Origin: Formosa agariphila KMM 3901 | GTDB lineage: Bacteria; Bacteroidota; Bacteroidia; Flavobacteriales; Flavobacteriaceae | Direction: 5' to 3' | DNA: 64,000 nucleotides | NCBI RefSeq assembly: GCF_000723205.1 | Contig: NZ_HG315671.1 | Coordinates: 2,577,351-2,641,350 of the forward strand | Shown: in pieces, positions 8,049 to 42,684 of the stretch | Numbering within the stretch: position 1 is the first letter of the stretch | Layout: each line of letters opens with the position of its first letter | Position numbers and translations under genes: made by a program | The notes under the pieces: model-generated | Told to the model about the DNA's origin: nothing | What the model saw: only the letters and a program-made list of their open reading frames with translations | Databases searched by the model: none

Positions 8049-8846
8049 ATGGCAAAAAGTATTATTACAACCGACGATCTTCGAGAGTTCAAAATGGAAT
8101 TACTCGATGACACTAAAAAACTATCAATAAAACAATCTAAAGGGGAATTAAAAAGATATCTCAGATCTTCAGAAGTTATGGAATTACTACAAGTTAGTGT
8201 AGGAATATCACTATTCCAGGGTTGGAATAGCAGTCGTTTCGCAATTGAATTTTACGTAAATCAAAAGGATTTGATGTTTGCTTCAAAAATAGTCTCAAAA
8301 TCTACATATCATAGATGCGTTACAGAATTAAATACATGGAATTACCTTTCTTATTTCCCTTCCAATAATCCATACAAAGGAAGTAAAATTAAGATGCCCA
8401 TTTTTGGTACAAATGATAACACTGTTTCGGAACAGTTCATTCCCAAATTAGGACAGCTTGCGGGACAGTACCGTCCCAAATTTGTACCGCTTCTGGATCA
8501 CAACCGTCCAATACTAGAACAAGCTATATACCAGTACCGTCCCACCTGTGGACAAGCACTGGTATCTACTATAAACAATAACAAACAAGTAAACAATATA
8601 AAACAGCCAAAGGGCTGTCAGGAAGTAAAATTATTTTTATTGAAAAAAAAATTTAATGCTGATGAAGGAAAAAAATTCTTCGAGTATTATAAAAATCGAG
8701 ACTGGAAAACTAGTGGTGGAAACGACATTCGTGATTGGCGAGCCAAAGTCATAAACGGGATGGATAGAACAGCGATATTCGACCTAGGAAACAATCCAAA
8801 CAAAAAAACAAGTGTCCCAAATCAAGGACAACTTACGAACCACTAA
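8049..8846 (+). CDS. Chimeric element protein: excisionase-type HTH N-terminus fused to a mobile-element accessory protein
   Basis: 265 residues from ATG 8049. Residues 1-52 (MAKSIITTDDLREFKMELLD to ELLQVS) match the start of the small HTH/excisionase-like proteins of Bacteroidetes conjugative elements, as I recall them. From about residue 53 (ISLFQGWNSSRFAIEFYVNQ, then KSTYHRCVTELNTWNYLSYF and NPYKGSKIKM) it resembles a different element protein, normally the next gene, which has a winged-helix replication- or transcription-regulator look. The recognition half of the HTH and the start of the second protein are absent, so the ORF looks like an in-frame deletion fusion. Near its end the frame is also broken: another frame, from 8824 to a stop at 8893, reads KDNLRTTKNKNYGQPVEDL, the expected natural C-terminus. 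The product is probably non-functional. Confidence 0.6.
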   Translation: MAKSIITTDDLREFKMELLDDTKKLSIKQSKGELKRYLRSSEVMELLQVSVGISLFQGWNSSRFAIEFYVNQKDLMFASKIVSKSTYHRCVTELNTWNYLSYFPSNNPYKGSKIKMPIFGTNDNTVSEQFIPKLGQLAGQYRPKFVPLLDHNRPILEQAIYQYRPTCGQALVSTINNNKQVNNIKQPKGCQEVKLFLLKKKFNADEGKKFFEYYKNRDWKTSGGNDIRDWRAKVINGMDRTAIFDLGNNPNKKTSVPNQGQLTNH

Positions 8847-13799: not shown

Positions 13800-15239
13800 T
13801 TAGTAATATTTGGCATAAACCACTCGGGTGTGCAAATATTCTTCCATACCATGTTTGCCATCTGCACCACCAACACCTGACTTTTTCCATCCGGCGTGAA
13901 AACCTTGTATGGCTTCAAAATGCTCTCTATTTACATAGGTTTCTCCAAATTGCAAACTATTAGTAGCATGCATGATGTTATTATAATTTTCTGAAAATAT
14001 AGATGAGGTTAAACCATACTGACAATCGTTAGCCAAGGCTATGGCTTCATCTAATGTAGTAAACTTCATTACAGGTAACACTGGGCCAAACACCTCTTCC
14101 TGAACCACCTGCATATTCTGTGTACAATTGGTCAACAAAGTAGGCTCATAAAAATACCCTTTACTAAATTTTTCCGGGCGCTTTCCTCCTACTAGAACTT
14201 CGGCTCCTTCCTTTTTAGCAAATTCGACCATTTCAGAAATTTTATCGATTTGTGATTTAGAAACTAAACTACTCATATCGGCATTCACTCCGGTTAAAGC
14301 ATCTTCAACCGTAACTTCACTCATCTTTTTGGTCAATTTTTCGACAAATTCATCGTAAATACTGTCTTCAACATACACACGTTCTGCACAGTTACAAACT
14401 TGACCGCTAAAAATCACTTTTGAAGACACTACAGCATTAACTGCTAATTCTAAATTGGCATCAGCACAAACAATAGCAGGTGCTTTCCCTCCTAATTCTA
14501 AAGAGACTTTGGTAATATTTTCAGCTGCAGCTTCAATAATTTTTTGTCCTGCACCAACACTTCCTGTTAAACTAATTATCCCCGTAATTGGACTTTTTGA
14601 AAGCGCGTTACCAACTGTTCTACCCGATCCACATACAAAATTTAATACACCTTTAGGTAAATCAATATTCTGAATAAAATCGGCAAATTCCATAATAGTA
14701 TTTGGTGCTTCAGAACTTGGTTTTATAACACAGGTATTTCCTGTAATTAAAGACGCTGCAACTTTTCTTGCCATTACAAAAAATGGGAAATTCCAAGGAC
14801 AAATACCTACAGCTACACCAATTGGTACTTTATGAAGGTAAATGTGTTCTTTAGCACGATCACTTTGTATAATTTCGCCTTCAATACGTCTAGCCCATCC
14901 GGCGTTATAATCGAAATAATCTGCTGTGACGTCAATTTCTACTTGTGCTAACCCGATAACTTTGGCTTGTTCTTTCGACAAAGTTTCTGCTAAAAACACT
15001 CTATTTTCTCTAATAACATCAGCCATTTTATGTAAAAAAGCGGCTCTTTGTATAGCTGGTAATGCTTCCCACACTGGCTGGGCTGCTTGAGCAGCTTCTA
15101 ATGCGTTGTTAGCGTCTTCAACAGTACCTGTAGAAATTGTACTTAACACTTCTTCTGTACAGGGATTTAAAATTTCAATGACCTCTGTAGCTTTAGAGTC
15201 TACAAATTGTCCATTGATATATTGCTTATAATGTTTCAT
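13800..15239 (-). CDS. aldA: Lactaldehyde dehydrogenase (NAD-dependent aldehyde dehydrogenase, AldA-like)
   Basis: 479 residues, the same length as E. coli AldA and very similar to it along its length as I recall it (QPVWEALPAIQRA, RRIEGEIIQSDRA, SGQVCNCAERVYV, NREHFEAIQGFHAGWKKSGV). It contains the NAD-binding region (GICPWNFPFF, about 147), the general-base Glu in LELGGKAPAI (about 249) and the catalytic Cys in GQVCNCAER (about 283). The reaction is L-lactaldehyde + NAD+ to L-lactate; such enzymes also accept glycolaldehyde. It is cytoplasmic. It lies 21 bp downstream of the lactate dehydrogenase gene, so the two probably handle the C3 product of rhamnose cleavage. Substrate specificity is inferred from similarity and context. 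Confidence 0.88.
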   Translation of the reverse strand: MKHYKQYINGQFVDSKATEVIEILNPCTEEVLSTISTGTVEDANNALEAAQAAQPVWEALPAIQRAAFLHKMADVIRENRVFLAETLSKEQAKVIGLAQVEIDVTADYFDYNAGWARRIEGEIIQSDRAKEHIYLHKVPIGVAVGICPWNFPFFVMARKVAASLITGNTCVIKPSSEAPNTIMEFADFIQNIDLPKGVLNFVCGSGRTVGNALSKSPITGIISLTGSVGAGQKIIEAAAENITKVSLELGGKAPAIVCADANLELAVNAVVSSKVIFSGQVCNCAERVYVEDSIYDEFVEKLTKKMSEVTVEDALTGVNADMSSLVSKSQIDKISEMVEFAKKEGAEVLVGGKRPEKFSKGYFYEPTLLTNCTQNMQVVQEEVFGPVLPVMKFTTLDEAIALANDCQYGLTSSIFSENYNNIMHATNSLQFGETYVNREHFEAIQGFHAGWKKSGVGGADGKHGMEEYLHTRVVYAKYY

Positions 15240-15260
15240 TTTAAAAAAATTATTTTGCTA

Positions 15261-16421
15261 TTATTTATTGGTTTGTTTAATTAAGTGATATGGAAAATCA
15301 CTTGTCGTGGCACAACATAATTGATTCATAACTTGCTGTAATTCTGTCTTCAATAATGAAATAGTATGATTACCACCTTCTTTTCCAAGTGCAGAAACAC
15401 CGTACATAAACGAGCGTCCCATAAATGTAAATTTTGCCCCACTTGCCAATGCTCGAGCTACATCAGGTCCTGAACGAATTCCACTATCCATCATCACTTC
15501 TATCTGATTACCATATTTTTCTGCAATTGTGGTTAGTGGTTTTATGGTAGATTCACCTGCGTCTAATTGCCGCCCACCATGATTAGAGACTATAATTCCG
15601 TCTATCCCTAATCTAATAGCTTCCTCTGCATCATATTCAGAGGCTACACCCTTTAATACTAACTTTCCTTTCCACATATCACGAATCGGTTTTATTTTTT
15701 CTGCATTTAATCGACCAGAAAAAGTTTGATCCATAAATTTCCCTAACTGTTTTAAATCTAAACCTTTTGGCATATAAGGCTTTAAGTTTTCAAAATTAGG
15801 TTGACCATATCTTAAAGTTTCTAAAGCCCAATGTGGTTTACCTAAAACTTGTAAAATATTTTGGATAGACATCTTTGGAGGCATTGCTAATCCATTACGT
15901 ATATCTCGTGGTCTAAAACCAAAGGTGGGTACATCGCAAAGAATTACCAGCACAGGACATTCTGCAGCTGCGGCTCGATGAATAATATCGTCTCTTAATC
16001 TATTTTCTGTAGGATGATACAATTGAAACCAAGCTTTTCCTTCTGTTAATTCACTTGCTCGCTCAATACTCGTCGTCGTTACAGTGCTTAGTATGAATGG
16101 AATATTATGCTCGAAAGCAGCTTTGGCTAAAATTTCTGGAGAGTTAGGCCACATTAATCCTTGTAAGCCCACAGGTGCAATCCCAAAAGGGGCATCATAT
16201 TCTATTCCAAATAATTTAGTTTTTAAGGAAGACCCTACATGTGCCCTTAAATAATTTGGCTTTAATTGTACATCTCTTAATTCTGAGGTATTTCTTAATA
16301 AATTTACATCCTCATTACATCCTCCATCTAAATATTCAAAAGCAAACTTTGGTATTTTTTTTTGCGCTTTAGTTCTTAAATCATCTATTGATGGATAGCG
16401 TGAATCAAATTTTATAGCCAT
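15261..16421 (-). CDS. lldD: FMN-dependent alpha-hydroxy-acid (L-lactate) dehydrogenase
   Basis: 386 residues, the usual length for LldD-type enzymes. Signature features: KAQKKIPKFAFEYLDGGCNE near the N-terminus, APVGLQGLMWP (FMN site), WFQLYHP, and IVSNHGGRQLDAGES around residue 280 with the catalytic His and the substrate-binding Arg, then MDSGIRSGPDVARAL and FMGRSFMYG for the FMN phosphate. It oxidises L-lactate to pyruvate and feeds electrons to the quinone pool or oxygen; it is usually membrane-associated from the inside. It lies 10 bp after the preceding aldolase-like gene and just upstream of aldA. Glycolate or another 2-hydroxy acid remains possible, but rhamnose-derived lactate is the simplest reading. 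Confidence 0.85.
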   Translation of the reverse strand: MAIKFDSRYPSIDDLRTKAQKKIPKFAFEYLDGGCNEDVNLLRNTSELRDVQLKPNYLRAHVGSSLKTKLFGIEYDAPFGIAPVGLQGLMWPNSPEILAKAAFEHNIPFILSTVTTTSIERASELTEGKAWFQLYHPTENRLRDDIIHRAAAAECPVLVILCDVPTFGFRPRDIRNGLAMPPKMSIQNILQVLGKPHWALETLRYGQPNFENLKPYMPKGLDLKQLGKFMDQTFSGRLNAEKIKPIRDMWKGKLVLKGVASEYDAEEAIRLGIDGIIVSNHGGRQLDAGESTIKPLTTIAEKYGNQIEVMMDSGIRSGPDVARALASGAKFTFMGRSFMYGVSALGKEGGNHTISLLKTELQQVMNQLCCATTSDFPYHLIKQTNK

Positions 16422-16431
16422 GTTATTTTTT

Positions 16432-17721
16432 TTACGATAAAAACTTTTTTCTTAAATCTTCTACTTGATTGTCATTAATTGGGACCATTTCTCCAAGTGA
16501 ATTTCCTAAGACTATAGATTTAGCACTAAATTCTGCAACCTCTAAATAATCGAAAGTTTGAAGTAATTTGTCGCCAGTAATAATTACCGAATCGTTTTCT
16601 ATAATTAATGCTGTAGCACAATTATCTACAAGATCTGAATTGTTGTTTTTTCTGAAATGAGCACCGTATTTTAAAGTTTTTATATCCTGTAAAAAAATCC
16701 AACTTTCTGGAATAGTACGTACATTTAAATAACTTCCTGTTACACCAAAAGCCATTAAATATGGAGATTGTGTCATGATTATTGAATTCACCTCGGGGTT
16801 ACGATTGTATATTTCTTGATGAATCCAAGCTGCTCTACTCGGTTTTTTTCCGGCCTCGCGTTTACCTTCTTTTACTTGAACAATATCATCTAAATCTATA
16901 TCCCATCTATTAATTCCTGTAGGGGTTATAAGAAAATCGTTTTCATTCCATCGCATAGAAACTGTCCCATAAGAGCTAATCATCAATCCTTGTTGACAAG
17001 AACGTTGCACTATTTGACAGATTTCTAGTCGTTTTTCAACTTCGTCTGAAAGATACGATGTGGTTTCCATTTCTGGTAAAACTCCTGTAGCTTGAGCCTG
17101 AAAATCATCTAATTGTTCATTTGTTAAGTATCTTGGTGTTCCTATTTGAGAACCATACAGTATGGTGCGCGCACAAAATTCTAAAGCTTCAAAACGTTCA
17201 AAAGCATCTGTTAAGTCACTTCCACCTAAAACGGTACCGTGATTTTCCATAATTACAGCTTTATATCCCTTTTTAAATTCGGCAGCTATGACTTCTCCCA
17301 AATCTTCGCTTCCAGGAAGTCTATACTCTGCATAGCCTATTGGACCACACACATGTTTAGCTTGTGAGATAACATTAGTATTAGGAATTTTTCGTACAAT
17401 ACTAAATGAAACTAAGGCTGGAGGATGCGCATGAATAACCGATTTTATATCTGGACGAGCTTCATAAATGGCTTTATGAAAAGGAAATTCTGAAGATGGT
17501 TTATGTTTACCTATTATTGTACCATCTTTTTTTACACAAATAATATCTGACGCTCTTAAAGAACCTTTATCAATAGCTGATGGGGTAACCCAAATATCTC
17601 CATTCTGGTCTATAACTGATATGTTACCACCAGAAGTCGTGGTCATTCCACGTTTATAAATTCTACTAATTATTGTAGTAATTTGGTCTCTTGGATGAAT
17701 TAGTTTTATTTTTCTAGTCAT
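16432..17721 (-). CDS. Two-domain class II aldolase/adducin-like protein with a degenerate second domain
   Basis: 429 residues, twice the length of FucA/AraD proteins. Domain 1 (about 1-210) keeps the active-site set: TSGGNISV (about 29-36), SSEFPFHKAIY with the catalytic Glu, VIHAHPPAL with two zinc-binding His, and MENHGTVLGG with the third His. Domain 2 (about 225-429) repeats the fold: SYGTVSMRW replaces GGNIS, PSRAAWIHQEIY replaces SEFPFHKAIY, and IIMTQSPYLMAFG replaces the HAHPP site, so the zinc ligands are lost. Only the first half can be catalytic; the second may be structural or binding. It lies between the kinase and lactate dehydrogenase genes (37 bp and 10 bp gaps), clearly in the operon. 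Because a rhamnulose-phosphate aldolase is already present, its reaction is open: another sugar-phosphate aldolase or an epimerase. Confidence 0.75.
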   Translation of the reverse strand: MTRKIKLIHPRDQITTIISRIYKRGMTTTSGGNISVIDQNGDIWVTPSAIDKGSLRASDIICVKKDGTIIGKHKPSSEFPFHKAIYEARPDIKSVIHAHPPALVSFSIVRKIPNTNVISQAKHVCGPIGYAEYRLPGSEDLGEVIAAEFKKGYKAVIMENHGTVLGGSDLTDAFERFEALEFCARTILYGSQIGTPRYLTNEQLDDFQAQATGVLPEMETTSYLSDEVEKRLEICQIVQRSCQQGLMISSYGTVSMRWNENDFLITPTGINRWDIDLDDIVQVKEGKREAGKKPSRAAWIHQEIYNRNPEVNSIIMTQSPYLMAFGVTGSYLNVRTIPESWIFLQDIKTLKYGAHFRKNNNSDLVDNCATALIIENDSVIITGDKLLQTFDYLEVAEFSAKSIVLGNSLGEMVPINDNQVEDLRKKFLS

Positions 17722-17758
17722 TATTTTTTTTGATTGAAAATTAGAAATACTCTATGAT

Positions 17759-19132
17759 TTAACTCACTATAAAAGGCACATGCTTTTTAAGGGCGTAATT
17801 TTTTTTAAGAAATTTAGAGTTCAGTTTAGCGTCTGAAATAGCAATTGCTGCCCCTAATGCAGATCCTAACGAAGAATCTGTAGTTCTTAATTTTTTATCT
17901 CTAAAATGATGAGCTAACAACTTTATATAAACATCGTTATCGCTGAAACCACCATCGACATAAATTCCAGAAATGGCATCGCTTCCTATTGCTTTTTTAA
18001 TGCTTTCTATTTGAAGTAAAACCAACTCTGTCATTAACTGATGATAAGCATGTTGGTAATTTTCAAAGTTCATAATTGTTTCCAAAGGCATGGTTTCTGC
18101 TTCAATACTTTCCCATTTAAAAGTATGTTTAAAGTTGTCTGTAATTTTTGAATACAAGTCGTAATCAAACTTAACATGGCGGTGATAATCATCGGCAACC
18201 CCAAAAGCTTCATCTAATTTCTTTACTTGCAATTTGTATTCATTACCTAAGAATAAACGTGTTGCTTTTACGGGCTTCCCATTTATTCGCATGTAATTAA
18301 TAGCCTCGTTTCCATCTACTTCGGTCGCAATAGGTTGCTCTGTAAACGGATTAAAAACTATGCTCCACGTTCCTGTAGACACTAATACAAATTTCTTTTT
18401 TATACTTCTTACATAAGGTAGAAGTGCGGCAGAGCTATCATGAATACCAACACCTATCTTAATTCGAGTGCCGTTATAATTCATGTTAACACTAGTCTCT
18501 GTAGACACTATTGGGGGTAAAATTTTATTAAATCCTTCTTGGTACACCCAACTGTGATAATCTTTTTTTACATAATCCCAAAGTGCAGTATGGCAACCAA
18601 TACTTGTATATTCGCTTAATGGAATACCTGTAAAAATATAACTAAGATATTGCGGTAAATGCAAGCTGTATTTTATTTTTTTATATACCTCCGGGTGCTC
18701 TTTTTTTAACCAATACAACTGTAAACCTGAGTTTAACATACTTAAATCTGAACATCCTGTAGTTTTAAGAAAATCTTCTCTTGGTCCGTAAGTTTCGAAA
18801 AAAGAATTTACAATTTGTTGCGGTAACGGCTTTGTATAATTATAAAGTGGTGTTAGCGGATTACCGTTTTCGTCTATATGAACTAAACTTGCACCATAGG
18901 TTGAGAAATTAATGGCTTTAACTTCAAATTCCTCAGCTTTAAGAATGCGGTTAAATACGTTTTTTAGCCAAGATTGTAAGGCAGGAAGGTTCTCTGTAGG
19001 ATGTCCGTCTTCATCTTCTATTTCATCAAAAGAAATATACTCTTTATGTACTTCCTTAAAATCCTTATCGAATAAGAAAAATTTCTTGTTAGTCTTACCT
19101 ATATCAAATACGGCTGTTACTTTTTTATTCAT
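17759..19132 (-). CDS. rhaB: FGGY-family carbohydrate kinase, probable L-rhamnulokinase
   Basis: 457 residues from ATG 19132 (MNKKVTAVFDIGKTNKKFFL); a TTG one codon upstream is less likely. The N-terminal phosphate-binding loop DIGKTNKK, the central VGIHDSSAALLPY and VSTGTWSIVFNPF, and the C-terminal GIYVDGGFSDNDVYIKLLAH with SLGSALGAAIAI follow the two-domain actin-like FGGY fold. It is cytoplasmic and transfers phosphate from ATP to a ketose. Placed between the RhaI isomerase (15 bp gap) and the aldolase-like gene, it should make L-rhamnulose 1-phosphate. The family also holds xylulokinases and fuculokinases; the assignment rests on context. Confidence 0.82.
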   Translation of the reverse strand: MNKKVTAVFDIGKTNKKFFLFDKDFKEVHKEYISFDEIEDEDGHPTENLPALQSWLKNVFNRILKAEEFEVKAINFSTYGASLVHIDENGNPLTPLYNYTKPLPQQIVNSFFETYGPREDFLKTTGCSDLSMLNSGLQLYWLKKEHPEVYKKIKYSLHLPQYLSYIFTGIPLSEYTSIGCHTALWDYVKKDYHSWVYQEGFNKILPPIVSTETSVNMNYNGTRIKIGVGIHDSSAALLPYVRSIKKKFVLVSTGTWSIVFNPFTEQPIATEVDGNEAINYMRINGKPVKATRLFLGNEYKLQVKKLDEAFGVADDYHRHVKFDYDLYSKITDNFKHTFKWESIEAETMPLETIMNFENYQHAYHQLMTELVLLQIESIKKAIGSDAISGIYVDGGFSDNDVYIKLLAHHFRDKKLRTTDSSLGSALGAAIAISDAKLNSKFLKKNYALKKHVPFIVS

Positions 19133-19147
19133 CAATCCAAAAGTTAA

Positions 19148-20428
19148 TTATAATCCAGAAGCAATACTGTGTTTTCCTCGCTCTTGAATTAAAGCCTCTC
19201 TAATTTTTAATTCTCGGTACACCCCTAACGGATTTAAAGCTCCTCCAGATTGCAGTCTTGCTTGTGCTAACAACGGACGTACATCTGTTCGATATGCATT
19301 TTGTAAAATTTCTTGACATTTAACGACATCATGCTCTTGTTGAGCTACACGTAATTCGGTTTGATTGACAAGTAGAGCTTTAGCATATGCTTCTTGAATT
19401 GCTTCTAGCGATTGCATTAAATCTTCTAACGGATCTTTTATATTATGACTCGCATCTATCATCCAAGATAAATCTGGATTCTGCGGATTGTTTTGCATAC
19501 CATAAACCAATTCGTTAAAAATTAAAAATAAAGCATAAGGTTTTACACTTCCAACAGTTACGTCGTCATCGCCATATTTACTATCGTTAAAATGAAATCC
19601 ACCTAATTTACCTTTTAACATTAATGTTGAAACAATTTGCTCGATGTTTGTATTTGGTAAATGATGTCCTAGATCTACAAGTGTATAAGCTTTATCTCCG
19701 CAAGCATTAGCAAGCATAAAAGATGTTCCCCAATCTTGAATTACGGTACTATAAAAGTTAGGCTCATAAGGTTTGTATTCTATAAAAAGTTTCCAATCGT
19801 CTGGAAGTGTATTGTAAATAGCTTTTAAACTATCTTCTGTATTAGAGAGTGCGGTTTGAAAATTATTCTGACCAGGAAAATTAGAACCATCTGCCAACCA
19901 AACGGTTAAGCTTTTAGATCCTAATTGTTCTCCTATTTTTATAACTTCTTGATTATGTGCTATAGCTTGTTCACGTACAACTTGACTTGCGTTACTTAAC
20001 GAACCATATTTATAACTTTCTTTAGCACCTTTTTGATCTTGAAACGTATTAGAATTTACAGCATCGAATTTTAAATTCAAACTTTTTGCTTGTTCTTTAA
20101 TCGCGCTATAATCCTCTGGAATATCCCAAGGAATGTGTAAAGACACCGCTCCTGCTGTTTGAGTTAAACTATGTAAAAGCCCCACATCGTCTAACTTTTG
20201 TGTTAAATTTGAAGGTTCTCCATAATAAGAAAAACGTCCAAAACGCGTGCCTCCTGCTCCTAAAGCCCAACTAGGAATAGCGACTTGAAATTCGGCAAGA
20301 CTTTTAATAATTTGTTCTACTTTAATACTTTTTTTATCTAATGTATTGGCTAAAAACTCAAATTGGTTTTGATGCTCTTTATTAGATTTTTTATTTATTT
20401 CTGAAATATTGGATTCTGATAATTTCAT
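19148..20428 (-). CDS. rhaI: L-rhamnose isomerase, RhaI type
   Basis: 426 residues, the length of the Pseudomonas stutzeri-type L-rhamnose isomerase, which has a TIM barrel. Landmarks: IPSWALGAGGTRFGRFSYYG (about 53), HIPWDIPEDYSAIKEQAKSL (about 100), WLADGSNFPGQ (about 178), FIEYKPYEPNFYST with a metal-binding Glu (about 218), TLVDLGHHLPN (about 253) and GGFHFNDSKYGDDD (about 280) with metal-binding His and Asp. It converts L-rhamnose to L-rhamnulose using divalent metal ions in the cytoplasm. This sequence type differs from E. coli RhaA. It is the second gene of the operon, 114 bp after the fusion gene with a hairpin in the gap. Confidence 0.9.
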   Translation of the reverse strand: MKLSESNISEINKKSNKEHQNQFEFLANTLDKKSIKVEQIIKSLAEFQVAIPSWALGAGGTRFGRFSYYGEPSNLTQKLDDVGLLHSLTQTAGAVSLHIPWDIPEDYSAIKEQAKSLNLKFDAVNSNTFQDQKGAKESYKYGSLSNASQVVREQAIAHNQEVIKIGEQLGSKSLTVWLADGSNFPGQNNFQTALSNTEDSLKAIYNTLPDDWKLFIEYKPYEPNFYSTVIQDWGTSFMLANACGDKAYTLVDLGHHLPNTNIEQIVSTLMLKGKLGGFHFNDSKYGDDDVTVGSVKPYALFLIFNELVYGMQNNPQNPDLSWMIDASHNIKDPLEDLMQSLEAIQEAYAKALLVNQTELRVAQQEHDVVKCQEILQNAYRTDVRPLLAQARLQSGGALNPLGVYRELKIREALIQERGKHSIASGL

Positions 20429-20447
20429 CTTAATTGATTTTTTTAAT

Positions 20448-20486
20448 AAACCTTTCTATTGATATATTTCAACCTAAGAAAGGTTT
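20448..20486. terminator. Hairpin in the gap between the aldolase fusion gene and rhaI
   Basis: AAACCTTTCT (20448-20457) pairs exactly with AGAAAGGTTT (20477-20486). The T run follows on the plus strand, opposite to the genes, so it is not a clear terminator for this operon. It may stabilise or stop mRNA ends. Just beyond it, ACTATACACTGTCTTACAC (20520-20538) resembles the operator-like sequence at 22703. Confidence 0.4.
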
Positions 20487-20542
20487 TTTTTAACAAACAA
20501 ACTAAAAAACAAACTAATTACTATACACTGTCTTACACAAAC

Positions 20543-22648
20543 TTACCTAACAAATGCATTAGCCATTCCGCCATCAACATTGATTATATTACCGGTAGAT
20601 TTATCTAACACACCCACTAATGCAAATACGCCATTAGCAATATCTACAGGGGTAATAATTTCGTTTAATAAATTTCTTTTAGCATAAAATGCAGGTAATT
20701 CTTCTACAGTAATTCCGTTTGCTTTTGCACGTCCTTCTGCCCAAGCTCCTTCCCAAATTTTACTACCTACTATTACACCATCTGGGTTTACTGTATTTAC
20801 TCTAATTTTATCTTTAGCTAATTCTGCAGCTAAAAGACGTGCCATATGTTGTTGCGACGCTTTTGCTGTACCGTAAGCTACATTATTAGGACCTGCAACC
20901 AAACCATTTTTACTAGCTATAGAAATGAAATCTCCTCCTAAGTTTTGCTTTCTCATAATTGTTGTAGAAAGCTTTGCAAGATTGAATTGTCCTTTAACTA
21001 AAATATTTTGTAAAATATCCCAATCTTTATCTGTTGTATCTTCTAATGCTTTTGATATAGCTAAGCCTGCACTGTGTACAACAATATCTATTCCTCCAAA
21101 TTCTAAGCATGCTTTTTTGTACGCTGAAGCGATAGAATCTGTATTGGTTACATCGCAAATTGCAGTTGTTGCAATATCTCTTTTATAGGTTGCTTGAGCC
21201 TCTTCTAAACTCTCTTCATTTATATCTGTTAGTACAACATTCGCACCTTCAGCAGCTAACTTATCGGCAATAGCTTTTCCTATTCCACCGCCAGCACCCG
21301 TTACAAACGCTACTTTACGAGACAGCGGTTGTTCTTTTGGCATACGTTGTAATTTGGCTTCTTCTAATAACCAATATTCTATATCAAAAGCTTCTTGTCT
21401 TGGTAATGAAGTGTACGACGAAATCGCTTCTGCTCCACGCATTACGTTAATAGCGTTAATATAGAATTCGCTAGCAACACGCGTAGTTTGTTTATTTTTT
21501 GCAAAACTGAACATACCCACACCTGGATAAATAATAATTACAGGATTTGCATCACGCATAGCCGGGCTATTATCCTTTTTACAAGTGTTATAATAATTTG
21601 CATACTCTTGTCTGTAAGCTTCAAAAGCTGGTTCTAATTTTTTAAGAACAGCTTCTGAATCGGATAAATCTTCATCTTTATCTAAAGTCAATACTAAAGG
21701 TTGAATTTTTGTTCTTAAGAAATGATCTGGGCATGAGGTTCCCATTGGTGCTAAACGTTCTAAATCATTACTATTGATATATTCCAAAACCACATCGGTA
21801 TCAGAAAAATGACCAATCATTCTGTTTTCCGAAGAACATAATCCTCTTAATAAAGGCATTAATTGTGCGGCTTTTTCTAAACGCTCTGCTTGAGGTAGAG
21901 ACTCTATTTTTTGTCCACCAAAAACCGATCCTTTTTCAGCAATCTTATTTTCGATGTACTTGGAAGCCATTTCAATAACTTCTAAACTATTTATATAACA
22001 TTCGTAAGATGTATCGCCCCAAGTAAATAATCCGTGGCTTCCTAATACTATACCTCGAATTCCAGGATTATCTGCTAAACATTTTTCTAATTGTAAACCC
22101 AAATCGAAACCTGGGCGCTGCCAAGGCACCCACCCCATAGTATCGCCCCAAATTTCTTTAGTCACCTTTTCACTATCCTCTGCTGCTGCAACGGCTATTA
22201 AAGCATCTGGATGTAAGTGATCTATATGTGCAAATGGTAATAAACCGTGTAAAGGGGTATCTATAGATGGTGCTTTACTGTTTAAATCGTAAATACAATG
22301 GTTAAAAAGTCCAACCATACGATCTTCATCTTCTAATCCGCCATAAACATTTTTTAAATCACGTAAGCGATCTGTATATAAACCTGCAATTCCTGCACGT
22401 GTTAAGGTTCCGATATCTCCTCCAGATCCTTTTACCCACATTACTTCTACATTATCTCCTGTTAAAGGGTCTTTTTCTATAGTTTTACAACTCGTATTTC
22501 CGCCGCCATAATTAGTAATCCTTAAATCTGCTCCTAAAATATTTGACCGGTATAAAAATAAGGCGACTTGGTCGTCTCCTATTTCCTCGACTTTATTTTC
22601 ATCCCATAGGTAATTTACATGCTTAAATTGTTTAACAAGATTATCCAT
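20543..22648 (-). CDS. rhaEW: Bifunctional L-rhamnulose-1-phosphate aldolase / lactaldehyde (alcohol) dehydrogenase
   Basis: 701 residues in two parts. Residues about 1-430 are a class II aldolase of the RhaE kind: ITNYGGGNTSCK (about 41-52), FAHIDHLHPDALIAVAAAED with zinc-binding His residues (about 140) and VLGSHGLFTWGDT (about 204). Residues about 440-701 are a short-chain dehydrogenase: VTGAGGGIGKAIADKLAAEG (NAD loop, about 447), catalytic YGTAKAS (about 592) and a VDGGMANAFVR tail. This is the known aldolase-dehydrogenase fusion of rhamnose pathways: it splits rhamnulose 1-phosphate into dihydroxyacetone phosphate and L-lactaldehyde, and the second half converts lactaldehyde. Family members have been described as oxidising it to lactate; reduction to propanediol is the older annotation. 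It is the first gene of the rhamnose operon, with an operator-like motif 55 bp upstream. Confidence 0.9.
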   Translation of the reverse strand: MDNLVKQFKHVNYLWDENKVEEIGDDQVALFLYRSNILGADLRITNYGGGNTSCKTIEKDPLTGDNVEVMWVKGSGGDIGTLTRAGIAGLYTDRLRDLKNVYGGLEDEDRMVGLFNHCIYDLNSKAPSIDTPLHGLLPFAHIDHLHPDALIAVAAAEDSEKVTKEIWGDTMGWVPWQRPGFDLGLQLEKCLADNPGIRGIVLGSHGLFTWGDTSYECYINSLEVIEMASKYIENKIAEKGSVFGGQKIESLPQAERLEKAAQLMPLLRGLCSSENRMIGHFSDTDVVLEYINSNDLERLAPMGTSCPDHFLRTKIQPLVLTLDKDEDLSDSEAVLKKLEPAFEAYRQEYANYYNTCKKDNSPAMRDANPVIIIYPGVGMFSFAKNKQTTRVASEFYINAINVMRGAEAISSYTSLPRQEAFDIEYWLLEEAKLQRMPKEQPLSRKVAFVTGAGGGIGKAIADKLAAEGANVVLTDINEESLEEAQATYKRDIATTAICDVTNTDSIASAYKKACLEFGGIDIVVHSAGLAISKALEDTTDKDWDILQNILVKGQFNLAKLSTTIMRKQNLGGDFISIASKNGLVAGPNNVAYGTAKASQQHMARLLAAELAKDKIRVNTVNPDGVIVGSKIWEGAWAEGRAKANGITVEELPAFYAKRNLLNEIITPVDIANGVFALVGVLDKSTGNIINVDGGMANAFVR

Positions 22649-22868: not shown

Positions 22869-24071
22869 TTATTTTAAAATTAGATTTTGTTTTCTTTTTA
22901 ATGCTTCTAAAAAGTAATAATCTCCATACACTATGGGCTCATCTATTTCATCATTTTTAGGCCAATTTCCTGTACTATGATTTAAGATAAATGGTCCGTT
23001 AACCGTATCTTTTAAAAGATAAGCTTCAGAATTTAAAGTATTTAAAACCTGTGTTGCAAAATCCAGATAGGTTTTATTGTTTGTATAGGTATATAATTCA
23101 AATAATGCCGATGTTACTATAGCCGCTGCCGAAGCATCTCGTGGTGCATCTGAAATTTCAGGATCGTTAAAATCCCAATACGGTACTCCATCTTTAGGAA
23201 GATTTTCATGTTCCATATAAAATTGAGTTGTAGCTTCTGCTTGCGCCAAATATTTCGGATTGTTAGTATATCTATAACTCATAGTATAACCGTAAATTGC
23301 CCAAGCTTGACCACGTGCCCATGTAGAGTTTCTATCGAAACCTTGATGCGTGTCTTTGGTTTTTACAACTCCAGAAATGGTATCGTAATTAATGACATGA
23401 AACACACTATAATCTGGTCTAAACTGGTGTTTTAAAGTGGTATTTGCATGTTGCACCGCAATGTTGTGATATATATTATCGCCTGAAATTTTTGTGGCTT
23501 CAAATAACAATTCTAAATTCATCATATTATCAATAATCACAGGAAAATCCCAAACATCTTTATTAAAATCCCATGAACGAATAGATTTTACAGTATCATT
23601 ATAGCGCGTAATTAAGGTTTTTGCACTTTCTATAATAACATCTTTATAATATTGATTATCGGGATCTTGTTTTAAACCTTCTCCAAAACTGCAATATACT
23701 TTAAAACCCATATCGTGAGTTCTGTCGTTCTCTTTCTGATCTTCCATTAAAACCGTCCATTCCTGAGCTTTCACTTTATAGATGCTATCTCCAGTTAGCT
23801 CGTGGATTAACCAAAGGTTTCCTGGAAAAAATCCGCTTGTCCAATCTTTAGATGGCACCTTATGCACCACCTCTGGAGCAAGCGACATACTTCTAGGAAA
23901 ATTATTGGCTCCTACAGGATAATTTACTAATTTTTGAAATCTATTCTCTAAGGACGAATACTGTTTACCTATATTCTGTTCTTCTTTTTTATTCTGTTTA
24001 GTTTCAGACTTACATCTCACATTTAGAAATGTAAGCCCTAGAACTAAAACCAAATAAACTAATTTTCTCAT
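22869..24071 (-). CDS. GH88/GH105-like unsaturated glucuronyl hydrolase (P1 of the ulvan PUL)
   Basis: 400 residues with an N-terminal signal (possible lipoprotein Cys at NVRC, residue 20). Family landmarks: DWTSGFFPGNLWLIHELTGD (about 75), THDMGFKVYCSFGEG with a key Asp (about 118), WDFPVIIDNMMNLELLFEAT with the second Asp (about 170), STWARGQAWAIYGYTMSYRY (about 240) and RDASAAAIVTSALFELYTY (about 305). Such alpha/alpha-barrel enzymes hydrate the double bond of 4,5-unsaturated uronates left by lyases and release the uronate. In ulvan degradation this frees the rhamnose 3-sulfate unit. It lies 14 bp after susD in the same transcript. It is probably periplasmic. Confidence 0.88.
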   Translation of the reverse strand: MRKLVYLVLVLGLTFLNVRCKSETKQNKKEEQNIGKQYSSLENRFQKLVNYPVGANNFPRSMSLAPEVVHKVPSKDWTSGFFPGNLWLIHELTGDSIYKVKAQEWTVLMEDQKENDRTHDMGFKVYCSFGEGLKQDPDNQYYKDVIIESAKTLITRYNDTVKSIRSWDFNKDVWDFPVIIDNMMNLELLFEATKISGDNIYHNIAVQHANTTLKHQFRPDYSVFHVINYDTISGVVKTKDTHQGFDRNSTWARGQAWAIYGYTMSYRYTNNPKYLAQAEATTQFYMEHENLPKDGVPYWDFNDPEISDAPRDASAAAIVTSALFELYTYTNNKTYLDFATQVLNTLNSEAYLLKDTVNGPFILNHSTGNWPKNDEIDEPIVYGDYYFLEALKRKQNLILK

Positions 24072-33339: not shown

Positions 33340-34182
33340 ATGAGCACAAAGTATGAGAGTCGTTATGCCTCAAGCCCGCAAACAGTTAAGCAATACGACA
33401 CCCAAGAATTACGCAACGAGTTTTTAATTGACAACTTGATGCAAAATGACACCATTAATTTAACCTACACGCATTACGACAGATACATAGCAGGATCTGC
33501 GGTACCAACCTCTAGTCCTTTAACTTTAGAGACTATCGATCCTTTAAAATCAGAGTATTTTTTAGAACGTAGAGAATTAGGTATTATTAACGTTGGCGGG
33601 ACAGGAAGTGTTACCGTTGATGGTACAGTGTACGAATTAGGTTTAAAAGATGCATTATATGTAGGTATGGGTAATAAAGACGTTGTGTTTGCTAGTGATG
33701 ATGCTAGTAACCCAGCACAATTTTATTTAAACTCGGCTCCGGCACATACTAATTATCCGACTAAAAAAGTTAGTAAGGCAGAAGCCAATAAAATTGAATT
33801 AGGAACTTTAGAAACAGCCAATCACCGTACGGTAAACCAAATGATAATTGGTGGTATTGTTACAACATGTCAATTACAAATGGGAATGACAGAACTAAAG
33901 ACAGGAAGTGTTTGGAACACTATGCCGGCCCATGTTCACAACCGTAGAATGGAAGTGTATTTATATATAGATATTCCTCAAGATCAAGCTGTATGTCATT
34001 TTATGGGAGAACCTCAAGAAACACGTCATATTTGGATGCAAAATAATCAAGCAGTTATTTCTCCACCTTGGTCTATACACTCTGGTTCGGGAACTTCAAA
34101 CTATACCTTTGTTTGGGGAATGGCAGGAGAAAATTTAGATTATAACGATATGGATGTTGCAAAAATAACAGAATTAAGATAA
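33340..34182 (+). CDS. kduI: 5-dehydro-4-deoxy-D-glucuronate isomerase (KduI; P5 of the ulvan PUL)
   Basis: 280 residues, the normal KduI length. It is a double cupin: YFLERRELGIINVGGTGSVT in the N-terminal half, and in the C-terminal half WNTMPAHVHNRRMEVYLYID with two zinc-binding His and a Glu (about 203-209), then SPPWSIHSGSGTSNY with the fourth ligand His. It converts 4-deoxy-L-threo-5-hexosulose uronate, formed spontaneously from unsaturated uronates, to 3-deoxy-D-glycero-2,5-hexodiulosonate in the cytoplasm. It is the first gene of a three-gene plus-strand operon with kduD (4 bp gap). It supports release of free unsaturated uronate from ulvan. Confidence 0.95.
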   Translation: MSTKYESRYASSPQTVKQYDTQELRNEFLIDNLMQNDTINLTYTHYDRYIAGSAVPTSSPLTLETIDPLKSEYFLERRELGIINVGGTGSVTVDGTVYELGLKDALYVGMGNKDVVFASDDASNPAQFYLNSAPAHTNYPTKKVSKAEANKIELGTLETANHRTVNQMIIGGIVTTCQLQMGMTELKTGSVWNTMPAHVHNRRMEVYLYIDIPQDQAVCHFMGEPQETRHIWMQNNQAVISPPWSIHSGSGTSNYTFVWGMAGENLDYNDMDVAKITELR

Positions 34183-34186
34183 GACC

Positions 34187-34981
34187 ATGAGTGTAGATTT
34201 ATTTGATGTAAAAGGTAAAATAGCCTTAGTAACAGGAAGTACGCATGGATTAGGAATGGCCATGGCAAAAGGATTAGGATTGGCAGGAGCCACTATTGTT
34301 GTAAATGGAAATTCTTCTCAAGACAAAATAGACAGCGCTATTGCAGAATACGAAAAGGAAGGTATAAAAGCTGTAGGTTACAAATTTAATGTAGCTAAAG
34401 AAGACGAAGTACAAGCAGCTGTTTCTAAAATTGAAGCAGAAGTCGGTCCTATAGACATTCTAATTAATAACGCCGGAATCATTAAGCGTACGCCGCTTTT
34501 AGAAATGGAAGTAGCCGATTTTAAAGAGGTAGTAGATATCGATTTGGTGAGTCCGTTTATAGTGTCTAAACATGTGGTTAAAAACATGGTAGAACGAAAA
34601 GCCGGAAAAGTAATTAATATTTGCTCGATGATGAGCGAGTTGGGCAGAAATAGTGTTGGGGCGTATGCCGCGGCCAAAGGTGGATTAAAAATGTTAACTC
34701 AAAACATGGCTACAGAATGGGCAAAATATAACATTCAGGTTAATGGTATTGGTCCAGGCTACTTTGCAACCTCGCAAACAGCACCTATTCGAGTAGACGG
34801 CCATCCGTTTAACGATTTTATTATTAACAGAACACCGGCAGCTAAATGGGGAGACCCAAATGATTTAGCAGGAGCAGCGATTTTTTTAAGCTCTAAAGCT
34901 AGCGATTTTGTAAACGGTCATGTGGTATACGTCGATGGTGGTATTTTAGCAACCATAGGTAAGCCTTCAAACGAAGAGTAA
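34187..34981 (+). CDS. kduD: 2-dehydro-3-deoxy-D-gluconate 5-dehydrogenase (KduD; P6 of the ulvan PUL)
   Basis: 264 residues, a classical short-chain dehydrogenase. The nucleotide loop is VTGSTHGLGMAMAKG (about 16), followed by NNAGIIKRTPLLEM (about 94), catalytic Ser and YAAAKGG Tyr-Lys (about 160), and a VDGGILATIGKPS C-terminus. It reduces 3-deoxy-D-glycero-2,5-hexodiulosonate to 2-keto-3-deoxygluconate. It is coupled to kduI (4 bp) and followed by the DUF4861 gene at 1 bp. The next steps, KDG kinase and KDPG aldolase, are not in the window. Confidence 0.93.
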   Translation: MSVDLFDVKGKIALVTGSTHGLGMAMAKGLGLAGATIVVNGNSSQDKIDSAIAEYEKEGIKAVGYKFNVAKEDEVQAAVSKIEAEVGPIDILINNAGIIKRTPLLEMEVADFKEVVDIDLVSPFIVSKHVVKNMVERKAGKVINICSMMSELGRNSVGAYAAAKGGLKMLTQNMATEWAKYNIQVNGIGPGYFATSQTAPIRVDGHPFNDFIINRTPAAKWGDPNDLAGAAIFLSSKASDFVNGHVVYVDGGILATIGKPSNEE

Positions 34982-34982: not shown

Positions 34983-36170
34983 ATGAAACATGTAATCATG
35001 CTATATTTTATAGCCGCAGCAACGTTGTTTAGCAGCTGCGCTAAGCAAGATTCAGAACATAGATTGATAACGGTAAAAAACAGTTTAGATTTACCACGAG
35101 CATTTGAAACTATCGAAATCTCAAAATCCGATATCCAATTACATACAGGAGAACGTTTTGAAGATTTTAGTATTCAGGATGTGGCAACAAAAGCAATTTT
35201 AACGTCTCAATTTGTAGATGAGGATCAAGATGGTACTGCCGATGTACTACTATTTCAACCCGAATTAAATCCTAATTCAGAAAAACAATTTGAATTGGTT
35301 AAGGTTGATGGTGGCGTTGAAGTAGACAGTACGGTGTATTGTTATTCACGATTTGTACCCGAACGCACCGATGATTATACTTGGGAAAACAACAAAGTAG
35401 CCTTTAGAACTTATGGACCTGTTGCCCAAAAGATGGTAGAAGATTCATTGCCAGGCGGCACCCTATCTAGCGGAATAGACGCTTGGTTAAAAAAAGTTGA
35501 ATATTCTATTATTGATAATTGGTATGCAAAAAATGATAAAGATCCAGGATACTATCATATAGACCACGGTGAAGGGTTAGATAATTTTCATGTAGGTTCT
35601 AGTCGTGGTGTTGGTGGTTCTGCTGTAAAAGTGGATACCTCTTATTACATCTCTAAAAACTTTACAGATTATAAAACCATAACTACTGGCCCAATACGAA
35701 CAAGTTTTATTTTAAAGTATGCCGATTGGGATGCCAATGAGAAAACAATATCAGAAGAAAAGCATATTTCTCTAGATTACGGCAATAACTTTTCTAGGTT
35801 TGAAATTCATGTTGACGGTACAGATGAATTATCGGTGGGATTAACATTACACGATAATAAGGGCGAGATAACTCAGAATGTAGATCAAGGATGGATTGCT
35901 TATTGGGAATCTGAATATTTTGACTCGGAGTTAGGAACGGCAATCGTAGCGCCTAAAGGTGTTATGACAGCTTCAGAGTATTATGTTACTAGTATGAAAG
36001 ATAGAAGTAATTTATATGCTCAACTTAATGTAGATAATAATAAAGTGGTATATTACGCCGGATTTGCTTGGAAGGAATCTAAGCAGTATCCAACGAAAGC
36101 CTCTTGGGAAAAGTATATTCAAGAATTTTCGGAGAAATTAAATACTCCGTTAGAAGTTAGTATTCAATAA
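34983..36170 (+). CDS. DUF4861-family lipoprotein of unknown function (P7 of the ulvan PUL)
   Basis: 395 residues. The signal peptide has a lipobox (LFSSC, Cys about 19), so it is a membrane-anchored periplasmic or surface protein. The body fits DUF4861: VAFRTYGPVAQKMVEDSLPG, GYYHIDHGEGLDNFHVGSSR, GGSAVKVDTSYYISKN and YYAGFAWKESKQYPTKASWE, conserved clusters rich in His, Asp and Glu that look like a beta-sandwich sugar enzyme site. The gene starts 1 bp after kduD, so it must be expressed with unsaturated-uronate metabolism. The family function is unknown to me. A lyase, or an enzyme acting on uronate-containing oligomers, is possible. Confidence 0.8.
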   Translation: MKHVIMLYFIAAATLFSSCAKQDSEHRLITVKNSLDLPRAFETIEISKSDIQLHTGERFEDFSIQDVATKAILTSQFVDEDQDGTADVLLFQPELNPNSEKQFELVKVDGGVEVDSTVYCYSRFVPERTDDYTWENNKVAFRTYGPVAQKMVEDSLPGGTLSSGIDAWLKKVEYSIIDNWYAKNDKDPGYYHIDHGEGLDNFHVGSSRGVGGSAVKVDTSYYISKNFTDYKTITTGPIRTSFILKYADWDANEKTISEEKHISLDYGNNFSRFEIHVDGTDELSVGLTLHDNKGEITQNVDQGWIAYWESEYFDSELGTAIVAPKGVMTASEYYVTSMKDRSNLYAQLNVDNNKVVYYAGFAWKESKQYPTKASWEKYIQEFSEKLNTPLEVSIQ

Positions 36171-36200: not shown

Positions 36201-36331
36201 TTAAGACTGTCTTAATCGTTTAAACAGTTGTCTGTCTATACGCTATACAGATTCTCATTACATTATTTTCAAAGCATAAGAGAATCTGAAATAAATTCAG
36301 ATTGACTTGCAACAACTTTTAAGACAGTCTT
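36201..36331. repeat. Palindromes and alternative hairpins between convergent genes
   Basis: TTAAGACTGTCTTAA (36201-36215) is a perfect palindrome around a central T. AAGACAGTCTT (36321-36331) is its inverse, so the two can also pair at a distance. Between them, GATTCTC/GAGAATC (36250-36286) and AATCTGAA/TTCAGATT (36283-36303) overlap and cannot both form. The gap separates the DUF4861 gene (plus) from a GH2 gene (minus). Function unclear. Confidence 0.4.
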
Positions 36332-36361: not shown

Positions 36362-36395
36362 AAATCGAGTTTACACTATGCTGTAAACCCGATTT
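36362..36395 (-). terminator. Terminator ending the long minus-strand PUL transcript
   Basis: AAATCGaGTTTAC (36362-36374) pairs with GTAAACcCGATTT (36383-36395), 12 of 13 pairs. On the minus strand it runs into eight T. It lies 33 bp past the GH2 stop and may serve both directions. Confidence 0.75.
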
Positions 36396-40233: not shown

Positions 40234-42684
40234 TTAAAATACCTTGTATGCTGTGGTTGCAGTTTCTGAATCTAGTGTATAATTATTGTACTTTAATGTT
40301 TTTCCTTCCCCAATATAAAGACTTATGGTTTTTTGCTCACCTTCAACTCTAATAATTCCAAAACGACCTTCAAACTTTATCTTTAATATCTTATTCTCAT
40401 ACACGCCATCTTTACTATCCAAAGAAATAATATAATCTGTAATTAATTTTCCATTTACTTTTGAAATCACTGTAACGCCTACAACTTTATCGGCATCTTG
40501 TAAAGGCGTCACTGTTTGGACGCTTGAACTTGCTTTGACTGATGGTTCGAAAACAGCTATAAAAGGTTTTTCCCAAGCTTCTCCGTCTTGTCTAATTGCC
40601 AATACTTGAGTTGGTTTTTCTTCATAACCATTTTTAGCTTCTCGTGTAGGTGGTGCCAATGCGGTGGTGTAGGATCGATTCACACCTTGGGGGACAAACA
40701 TATGCATAAAACGTTCATCATAATCTATTTTAAACGTTGCATGCACCCCTTTATGAATAGGTTTCGTTGATTTGGTGTCTTCAAAATAGCGCCAACCTGG
40801 AGACTGTACCGGATCTCCAATATCTGTTTTATATCGCGTTGTCGGTTCTGTTCTTAAGGTTTCACCATTTTCTGTTTCTAACAAAGTAGCATCTCCTATA
40901 TTATGGTAAATATAATCTTGAAACTTATTTTCAGTTAATGATTTAGAACGAAATACATCTAAATAGTACCCTGTTTTTTCACTAGTACGAATAGTGCTTA
41001 ATGTGCGTTCCTGATCACAATTATTAATGGTGTCTTTTAAAAATTGTGTTGCAAAATTAAAATGCTCACTAATAGGATCTTCTAAATGTTTGGGTTCTGC
41101 GGCAATATTAACTACCGTATTTTGCCACACATAGGCGCCATCTTTCCAAGATCCGGGTTGAATACCATGCGAAGTTCCGTTAACAATTACAGTATTATTA
41201 CCGGCATATAATCTAAAATAATTTTCGTGCAATGGAATTCTTCGTTCTTTTACTGTTTTAGGCAAGCCACCATTTGGAGCCATAACATAGCCTGCACCAT
41301 AAAGTTCCATAGTTATTCCGGTAACATGAGAATGCACATAATGGGCACCACCAATAATACCACATAAGCCATATAGTTCGTTATCTGTTTCAACATAGTT
41401 TCGCTGTAAGGCAATACCAGCATGCTCAACCAATACTGTAGGTTTTTTAAAATCTATTTTAGAATCTATACCTTTTGGGATTGGTGTTCCCCAGAATAAT
41501 TTTAAAGGCTCTGAACTGTTAAAAGTAGCAGGAGAAATTTTTGATTGGTAGCCACCCTGTCTCTGATAGGCTTGACTAAGGGCTATTTTGGCCTGATTTT
41601 CTAAATTTGAATATCCTCGGCGTTGTGCTAAGTTTAGTGTGTACCTATATAACTGTTCGGTACCATCGTGATTTCTTTTAGAATCACCATACCTTACAAA
41701 TCTACCATCTGGCATTCTTAAATTATCGAACAAAAAATTTCCTTTATAAATGTTTTTATAATTCTGAGTAACCTGCATTTCAGGATAAACCCGATCTATG
41801 ATATTTAAAACTAGAGTGACGGCTGGCATAAAACTATAACTTGTTGATTCTGGCCAAATCCCTTGCTTACCAAACATTGGTAAAATAGTGTTTTTAAAAG
41901 AATTTTGATGTGCAGTTCCTTTCTCCCAAAAAACGTCGAACAAGCGCTCCCGTTCTTTATCATCTTCAATACATAGAATACCATAAAGCACCCCGGGAGC
42001 AGTTAAAATAGGATGATTTGAAATAAATTTACCATGTGTATCCGGGCGACCATATTCTTGCAAACTACTACCAACCATATTTAAGAGAACTTTTTGAAAC
42101 AGGTCTCTATCGAACGTTTGCTGCTTATTTGCAGAAGCCTTATAAACTTTGGTTGTCGGTTTGTTTAAAAAATTATAAATAAAATCATATGCTAATGCAA
42201 ATTGGGCGTAAGATGTTCGAGGATCGTAAAAATGATTCCCACAAATGGTAGTATTTTTAGGACTTCTATCAGATAAAACAGTGACGTAATGCCATAATAC
42301 ATCTGCCGAAAACTGAGCGTATTTTTCGTCATCAGTCAAAAAATACAACATAGCTGCATAAGAGGCATCTGTAAGTACTGCTGCATGATCTCCTACTGTT
42401 ACCGCTTCAAATTCGGTTAACGAATTATCGGCAGGTATTTCTGGAATATGGGATAATATTACTGATGGCTTTTTTTGATGGGCTTCCACTTTTTTATCTA
42501 CTACAGCATGTAAATCATGTTCCATTTTTTTAGCCCAATCATACTTTTCTATTAGATTTAAAATATCTTGTTTTTCATCTTGAGTTACCCAGATAACAGG
42601 ATGCTGCATGGATTGAGACCAACAAAAATTTGTCCCAAACAGCATCATTAACACAACACTTATTCTTCTTACACTAGTTCCCAT
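40234..42684 (-). CDS. Ulvan lyase, PL40/heparinase-II/III-like (P10 of the ulvan PUL)
   Basis: 816 residues with a signal peptide (about 1-23, TNFCWSQ). The N-terminal half is an alpha/alpha toroid with YFLTDDEKYAQFSADVLWHY, SYAQFALAYDFIYNFLNKPT and FISNHPILTAPGVLYGILCI; the C-terminal half is the beta-sandwich of heparinase II/III lyases (GIIGGAHYVHSHVTGITMEL with clustered His at about 425-435, then NGTSHGIQPGSWKDG). From memory, the protein at this position in Formosa agariphila is the endo-ulvan lyase that founded PL40. It would cut between rhamnose 3-sulfate and uronate by beta-elimination, leaving an unsaturated uronate for the GH88 enzyme. Its start codon directly abuts the stop of the upstream sulfatase gene. 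Confidence 0.82.
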   Translation of the reverse strand: MGTSVRRISVVLMMLFGTNFCWSQSMQHPVIWVTQDEKQDILNLIEKYDWAKKMEHDLHAVVDKKVEAHQKKPSVILSHIPEIPADNSLTEFEAVTVGDHAAVLTDASYAAMLYFLTDDEKYAQFSADVLWHYVTVLSDRSPKNTTICGNHFYDPRTSYAQFALAYDFIYNFLNKPTTKVYKASANKQQTFDRDLFQKVLLNMVGSSLQEYGRPDTHGKFISNHPILTAPGVLYGILCIEDDKERERLFDVFWEKGTAHQNSFKNTILPMFGKQGIWPESTSYSFMPAVTLVLNIIDRVYPEMQVTQNYKNIYKGNFLFDNLRMPDGRFVRYGDSKRNHDGTEQLYRYTLNLAQRRGYSNLENQAKIALSQAYQRQGGYQSKISPATFNSSEPLKLFWGTPIPKGIDSKIDFKKPTVLVEHAGIALQRNYVETDNELYGLCGIIGGAHYVHSHVTGITMELYGAGYVMAPNGGLPKTVKERRIPLHENYFRLYAGNNTVIVNGTSHGIQPGSWKDGAYVWQNTVVNIAAEPKHLEDPISEHFNFATQFLKDTINNCDQERTLSTIRTSEKTGYYLDVFRSKSLTENKFQDYIYHNIGDATLLETENGETLRTEPTTRYKTDIGDPVQSPGWRYFEDTKSTKPIHKGVHATFKIDYDERFMHMFVPQGVNRSYTTALAPPTREAKNGYEEKPTQVLAIRQDGEAWEKPFIAVFEPSVKASSSVQTVTPLQDADKVVGVTVISKVNGKLITDYIISLDSKDGVYENKILKIKFEGRFGIIRVEGEQKTISLYIGEGKTLKYNNYTLDSETATTAYKVF

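Follow-up and report, generated by a model that had tools for sequence, protein, structure and literature searches.

A predicted DUF4861 lipoprotein encoded with KduI and a reductase in Formosa agariphila: a candidate uronate mutarotase-like enzyme

The KduI-reductase-DUF4861 triad and its surroundings

The window analysed here is a stretch of 64,000 nucleotides from Formosa agariphila KMM 3901 (contig NZ_HG315671.1), a bacterium whose ulvan locus has been published (PMC8511951, accessible text). Three genes follow one another closely on its forward strand. The first, at 33340..34182, encodes the 280-residue 5-keto-4-deoxyuronate (5-dehydro-4-deoxy-D-glucuronate) isomerase KduI, the identity of which is firm (PF04962, 103.6 bits; NF002091, 459.8 bits against a cut-off of 250). 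An SDR reductase of 264 residues occupies the KduD/DhuD position at 34187..34981, and a gene for a 395-residue protein of DUF4861 subfamily A, with an ATG start, lies at 34983..36170. A first-pass annotation had placed the last of these 1 bp after kduD. The single-base gap was found, but the name of the middle gene did not hold, given that its product scored 239.5 bits with the KduD model TIGR01832, under the curated cut-off of 338.85; its best NCBIfam model was NF005488, gluconate 5-dehydrogenase (451.8 bits, cut-off 369). A hybrid kduI-dhuD pair in Bacteroidota was reported in a 2025 survey (PMC12838403, accessible text), and we think that the kduI and reductase genes of the window represent this pair. 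The main text of the same survey contains no word starting with "DUF".

The DUF4861 gene is real: its product matches PF16153 from residue 31 to 392 with 298.1 bits (cut-off 22.3), spanning profile positions 1-380 of 380, and exceeds the cut-off of 320 for the NCBIfam model NF058564, "BT3233 family polysaccharide utilization protein", with 392.9 bits. DUF4861 is a known family, and the PF16153 and NF058564 names are both without a stated reaction. A literature search with most subscription journals outside its reach returned nothing on DUF4861, BT3233, PF16153 or a uronate mutarotase. The N-terminus of the window protein, MKHVIMLYFIAAATLFSSC followed by AKQ, was judged by eye to be a lipoprotein-type signal peptide (34983..35039, forward strand) with Cys19 as the predicted lipidated residue, which is nearly invariant (at least 90%) across the 45 rows of alignment A3. 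Because the N-termini of KduI and the reductase carry no such signal, the earlier view that DUF4861 is exported while its two partners are cytoplasmic appears sound. Export was judged in the same manner for the paralogue of the window protein and for four short subfamily-B proteins, the latter likewise starting with signal-like N-termini, as would be expected of an exported uronate enzyme. A crude lipobox pattern (62 of 99 subfamily-A and 19 of 31 subfamily-B sequences) was discarded as unreliable after at least one false match (L071).

Elsewhere in the window, the reverse strand encodes at 22869..24071 an unsaturated glucuronyl hydrolase of the GH88/GH105 type (PF07470, 33.8 bits, cut-off 26.6), which carries a signal peptide and is expected to supply the uronate monomer. 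Between the triad and a convergent GH2 gene lies a terminator-like hairpin of 14 pairs (36362..36395, reverse strand), which is a consensus match only, such matches being at chance level in the region (2 found, 1.7 in shuffles). The gap after the DUF4861 gene also holds 18-nt inverted repeats 93 nt apart (AAGACTGTCTTAATCGTT / AACTTTTAAGACAGTCTT; 36203-36331). A mobile-element reading of this repeat did not hold, as it is present in a single copy in the genome besides one 26-base match.

Three further observations were made on the reverse strand. An 816-residue ORF at 40234-42684, signal-like at its N-terminus, matched no Pfam family at E 0.001 but strongly matches the solved protein Uly1040 (9vtk, E 1.9e-102). 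The name Uly1040 suggests an ulvan lyase; the ORF could encode such a lyase or the dehydratase-type enzyme known from the ulvan pathway. A 470-residue protein at 12141-13553 reads like a multi-span membrane transporter; no Pfam match was found at E 0.001 and its PDB match was at chance level (E 0.13), and it has strong relatives (872-936 bits) in 6 of the best 80 of 582 DUF4861 loci (e.g. L073, L090 and L113). The run at 13800-22648, comprising genes for an aldehyde dehydrogenase, an FMN-dependent dehydrogenase, a class II aldolase, an FGGY kinase, an isomerase with a weak, below cut-off RhaA match and an aldolase-SDR fusion, looks like an L-rhamnose breakdown module beside the ulvan genes.

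The whole genome (G000; a single contig of 4,228,350 bases) contains two DUF4861 genes, the products of which are 80% identical. Each is the last gene of a KduI-reductase-DUF4861 triad and is separated by 1 bp from the gene ahead of it, and given that the only other DUF4861 gene of the genome repeats the triad and the gap, the arrangement is more than chance. The second triad adjoins genes for a sulfatase, an alginate-lyase-like protein with CBM96, an esterase, GH30, GH39 and DUF6250, and thus probably serves another polysaccharide. A third KduI-reductase pair is situated, without DUF4861, in a hexuronate hub with GH105, UxuB, UxuA, UxaC and the TRAP transporter DctPQM; this hub counts against the reading developed below, in which DUF4861 would be an exported enzyme acting on the ring form of uronates.

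Distribution and gene neighbourhoods of the family

Co-occurrence with kduI had been set beforehand as a result on which the first-pass reading could be refuted, and it proved complete. Within a sample of 392 Bacteroidota genomes from 179 genera, DUF4861 was found in 84 genomes (50 genera) and KduI in 127 (76 genera), and every one of the 84 DUF4861-positive genomes carried KduI. For comparison, among genomes with an alginate lyase, taken as polysaccharide users in general, KduI was present in 50 of 68. The Fisher value for the association of DUF4861 with KduI overstates the evidence, because the genomes are related to each other. GH88/GH105 was matched in 83 of the 84 genomes, and the link of DUF4861 to uronate use is strong. 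The sole exception, G103, has the triad in one ORF run with UxuA, UxaC, DctP and DctM (L144:5782-16736), and may obtain its uronate through a divergent hydrolase or in some other way.

Proximity was less uniform. With a distance limit of 3 kb, 28 of the 118 DUF4861 copies had KduI as a neighbour, 37 had a listed GH88/105 gene and 61 had one or the other; 32 copies were on a contig without KduI. The 57 copies with neither KduI nor a listed GH88/105 gene within 3 kb argue against a ring-form enzyme, as do the 43 of 127 KduI-positive genomes that are without DUF4861.

Closer relatives were collected by a scan with a subfamily-A alignment; it confirmed 582 stretches, of which the best 80 were kept, a set biased to close relatives. 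Of these 80 loci, 79 yielded an ORF call; KduI was upstream on the same strand and within 3 kb in 54, and the full triad was present in 44. UxuA was encoded in 32 of these 80 loci, DctP, DctQ and DctM together in 19 and UxaC in 15, so both uronate branches are served. Cellulophaga tyrosinoxydans illustrates this with consecutive genes for GntR, an SDR, UxuA, KduI, the reductase, DUF4861, UxaC, DctP, DctQ and DctM. In 15 of the 56 loci of at least 20 kb drawn from the same best 80 of 582, DUF4861 is accompanied by UxuA and UxuB without KduI.

The first-pass annotation had assigned DUF4861 to a step in ulvan use. An ulvan-specific role was rejected, since the family and even subfamily A are found in many other settings: the second, different locus of the same genome, pectin-type loci, general hexuronate clusters with UxuA, UxaC and TRAP transporters, and L045 (genome G238). 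In L045 the triad is flanked by HaeIII-type restriction-modification genes and a histidine kinase gene, and a TonB-dependent receptor gene begins ~3 kb past it; no lyase or glycosidase was found in the five ORFs scanned around the triad (two small ORFs were outside the scan). Likewise, the scanned ORFs of the hexuronate run in L062 (5126-15377) included no lyase or glycosidase.

Gene fusions give a further indication of where the protein acts. A GH88-DUF4861 fusion of 773 residues (L040), a DUF4861-pectinesterase fusion of 746 residues (L039) and a GH2-DUF4861 fusion of 1095 residues (L041) place DUF4861 where uronic acids are freed. Two further genomes of the genus of L039 have ORFs of similar length with a DUF4861 match, the scan there covering the DUF4861 half. 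Of the 118 copies, 112 are in open frames of at most 477 residues, so nearly all DUF4861 proteins stand alone rather than joined to an enzyme. A separate observation concerns L147, in which a subfamily-B DUF4861 gene (4310-5698) overlaps a PL26-like gene (5599-8337), both on the reverse strand, with two GH88 genes adjoining.

The position of DUF4861 between GH88/105 and KduI raises the explanation that the protein is strictly an exported replacement for KdgF, linearising only the 4,5-unsaturated uronate. KdgF, the known ring-opening enzyme, is a cytoplasmic cupin, and its likeness to DUF4861 lies in the proposed step, acting on the ring form of the unsaturated uronate ahead of KduI; it belongs to another family, and no cupin family appeared among the Pfam matches of the window protein. 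At a threshold of ~90 bits, which was our choice and keeps 74 of the 107 genomes matching at E 1e-10, 38 of the 84 DUF4861-positive genomes were without KdgF, as replacement would predict. However, the two distributions are not complementary and the relationship is one of co-occurrence rather than exclusion: KdgF was called in 46 of 84 DUF4861-positive genomes and in 15 of 43 that have KduI without DUF4861 (Fisher p 0.04). F. agariphila itself has a KdgF-like cupin elsewhere in the genome (L139; E 1.6e-27 with the solved KdgF 5fpx). Because genomes with DUF4861 are not short of KdgF, a simple replacement of one by the other does not fit; this lack of avoidance also counts against the ring-form reading developed below. 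Two other points weigh against replacement: the 15 long loci above pair DUF4861 with saturated-uronate genes only, and the accessible text of PMC12838403 does not report KdgF below 50% in the kduI-dhuD type. Strict replacement is accordingly regarded as highly improbable.

Conserved residues and predicted fold

A family alignment of 130 rows (99 of subfamily A and 31 of subfamily B) was assembled from 136 matched ORFs by retaining non-duplicate sequences of at least 250 residues. A tree of these members split cleanly into A and B, both of which are found beside KduI and the reductase. Adjacency to KduI required 12 changes on this tree, a weak result because many loci are only ~4 kb long and may be mislabelled as having neither neighbour. 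A putative active-site block covers residues 128-212 (35364..35618, forward strand) and comprises Glu135, Arg142, Asp166, Lys170, Tyr191, His192 and Asp200. In keeping with the conserved His/Asp/Glu clusters pointed out at first pass, Glu135, Arg142, Asp166, Lys170 and Asp200 are invariant in all 130 rows (99/99 A, 31/31 B). His192 is kept in 99/99 A and 26/31 B sequences, and Tyr191 in 99/99 and 27/31.

This pattern bears on whether DUF4861 is an enzyme at all. A non-catalytic carbohydrate-binding lipoprotein, which would hold uronates or scaffold GH88/GH105 near the transporter, would suit the lipoprotein anchor; the domains in the fusions could be binding modules, and the dependence on KduI could reflect plain pathway membership. 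However, five invariant charged residues with a near-invariant Tyr-His pair would seem to exceed the conservation usual in a binding module, and the predominance of stand-alone copies also argues against this role, which we consider improbable.

An AlphaFold model of the whole window protein (mean pLDDT 90.9, pTM 0.88; 86.7 for the supersandwich alone) predicts an N-terminal beta domain followed by a supersandwich of the mutarotase/lyase type. Compared as a whole, the model aligned with the C-terminal pair of beta domains in GH38 (Ams1, Z 16.7, 250 aligned residues) and with domains one and two of PL26 (Z 14.6, 281 aligned). For the predicted supersandwich alone, the closest matches were PL26 (Z 15.9, 217 aligned, 3.3 Å) and GH38 (Z 15.3), with Z values of 13.7 for the putative GalM 3mwx (194 aligned, 3.5 Å), 13.4 for GalM 4bze (196 aligned, 3.5 Å) and 12.3-13.3 for heparin/heparan lyases; other supersandwich families did as well as these GalM structures or better. 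YidC and OpgG also appeared in the match list, so the fold is a very common one. That the best neighbours of the model are PL26 and GH38 beta domains, and not GalM, argues against a mutarotase-like protein.

Sequence comparison did not link the protein to GalM or PL26. A Pfam scan of the window protein at E up to 1 gave PF16153 only, with neither PF01263 nor PF07470 (GH88/GH105), and no sequence match was found in the PDB. The A1 profile retrieved two weak PDB matches, to FhuD-type binding proteins (E 0.04), which were taken as chance. Profile alignment with hhalign gave a probability of 0.1% for kinship with three PF01263 members of this genome, and of 0.6% and 0.3% for two PL26-like relatives. 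The likeness to GalM is thus one of a shared supersandwich fold over ~195 residues, and DUF4861 differs from it in the extra N-terminal beta domain, lipoprotein export and the absence of profile kinship. The likeness to the PL26 enzyme PcRGLX extends to the order of the two domains, but PcRGLX has ~900 residues with a further C-terminal part, and the match of the 395-residue DUF4861 model stops at its residue 508-510. By contrast, the PL26-like relative in L158 (912 residues) matches PcRGLX across residues 41-898. Given that there is no sequence kinship to GalM or PL26, the predicted fold backs a carbohydrate-active, possibly mutarotase-like site and leaves the reaction undecided.

These comparisons also bear on a lyase- or hydrolase-type activity, in which DUF4861 would break or modify the terminal uronyl residue of short uronate oligosaccharides outside the cytoplasm, next to GH88/GH105. 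The nearest uronate-acting neighbours of the modelled fold are polysaccharide lyases (PL26, HepC, exoHep and PL4), the conserved Lys, Tyr and His could serve beta-elimination, and both the fusions with pectinesterase, GH88 and GH2 and the overlap with a PL26-like gene beside two GH88 genes in L147 would fit such an activity. Against it stand the missing C-terminal part and sequence kinship of PL26, and the failure to find a lyase or glycosidase in the scanned ORFs of L045 and the L062 run. This activity is judged unlikely, ranking after a mutarotase-like enzyme and ahead of a binding lipoprotein.

A proposed exported enzyme for the uronate ring form

The first-pass annotation had suggested an enzyme acting on uronate oligomers. 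An exported, probably enzymatic protein tied to KduI is retained, but oligomers are less likely substrates than a free monosaccharide. Unsaturation at C4-C5 makes the products of GlcA-, IdoA- and GalA-containing polymers identical, so one module can appear in many loci; that the module recurs in loci of pectin type and among general hexuronate genes speaks for a free uronic acid monosaccharide, and the 15 long loci with UxuA and UxuB but no KduI argue in the same direction. The placement of DUF4861 alongside UxuA, UxuB and UxaC means that saturated GlcA or GalA is probably among the substrates. Outside the inner membrane, both branches share one step, the opening and re-closing of the ring of a free uronic acid, and we therefore tentatively propose that DUF4861 could be an exported uronate mutarotase-like enzyme, acting on the free uronic acid monosaccharide between GH88/105 and uptake. 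Operon position, family membership and the constant company of KduI were established by sequence, export was read from the N-terminus and the fold was predicted. NanM, the periplasmic sialic acid mutarotase with a beta-propeller fold, offers a likeness in being an exported mutarotase encoded with a catabolic operon.

In the proposed scheme, GH105 would release 5-keto-4-deoxyuronate, or another enzyme would free GlcA or GalA, and the periplasmic step of DUF4861 would follow cleavage of the final glycosidic bond and precede uptake. Arg142 and Lys170 may grip the uronate carboxylate, and the acid/base residues Glu135, Asp166, Asp200 and His192 may open and re-close the sugar ring, making the protein a mutarotase or ring-form converter. 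The correct ring form would then be passed to an inner-membrane transporter, which is of the TRAP type in many clusters, and after uptake would enter KduI and its reductase or UxaC, UxuB and UxuA. The first step accords with the F. agariphila enzyme P33_GH105, which releases the KduI substrate 5-dehydro-4-deoxy-D-glucuronate (PMC8511951, accessible text). Weighing against a ring-form enzyme, opening of the unsaturated uronate ring has been reported to proceed without an enzyme (PMC12838403, accessible text).

New here are the triad, the gene fusions and the dependence of DUF4861 on KduI, which together give a sharp and testable placement in the pathway. A wider proposition is doubtful though conceivable: DUF4861 would stand for a new family of exported enzymes acting on the hexuronate ring form, a general periplasmic gate before uptake in Bacteroidota that serves ulvan, pectin and other uronate polymers alike. 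Pectin, glycosaminoglycans and the ulvan of green algae all contain a large proportion of uronic acids. Should Bacteroidota indeed place a dedicated exported enzyme between the glycosidase and uptake, the textbook scheme of GH88/105, spontaneous ring opening, KduI and KduD would be short of a step. Were the wider proposition true, a general gate would follow GH88/GH105 or other uronate-releasing enzymes, and DUF4861 would provide the missing step of a very common sugar-acid pathway of gut and marine bacteria.
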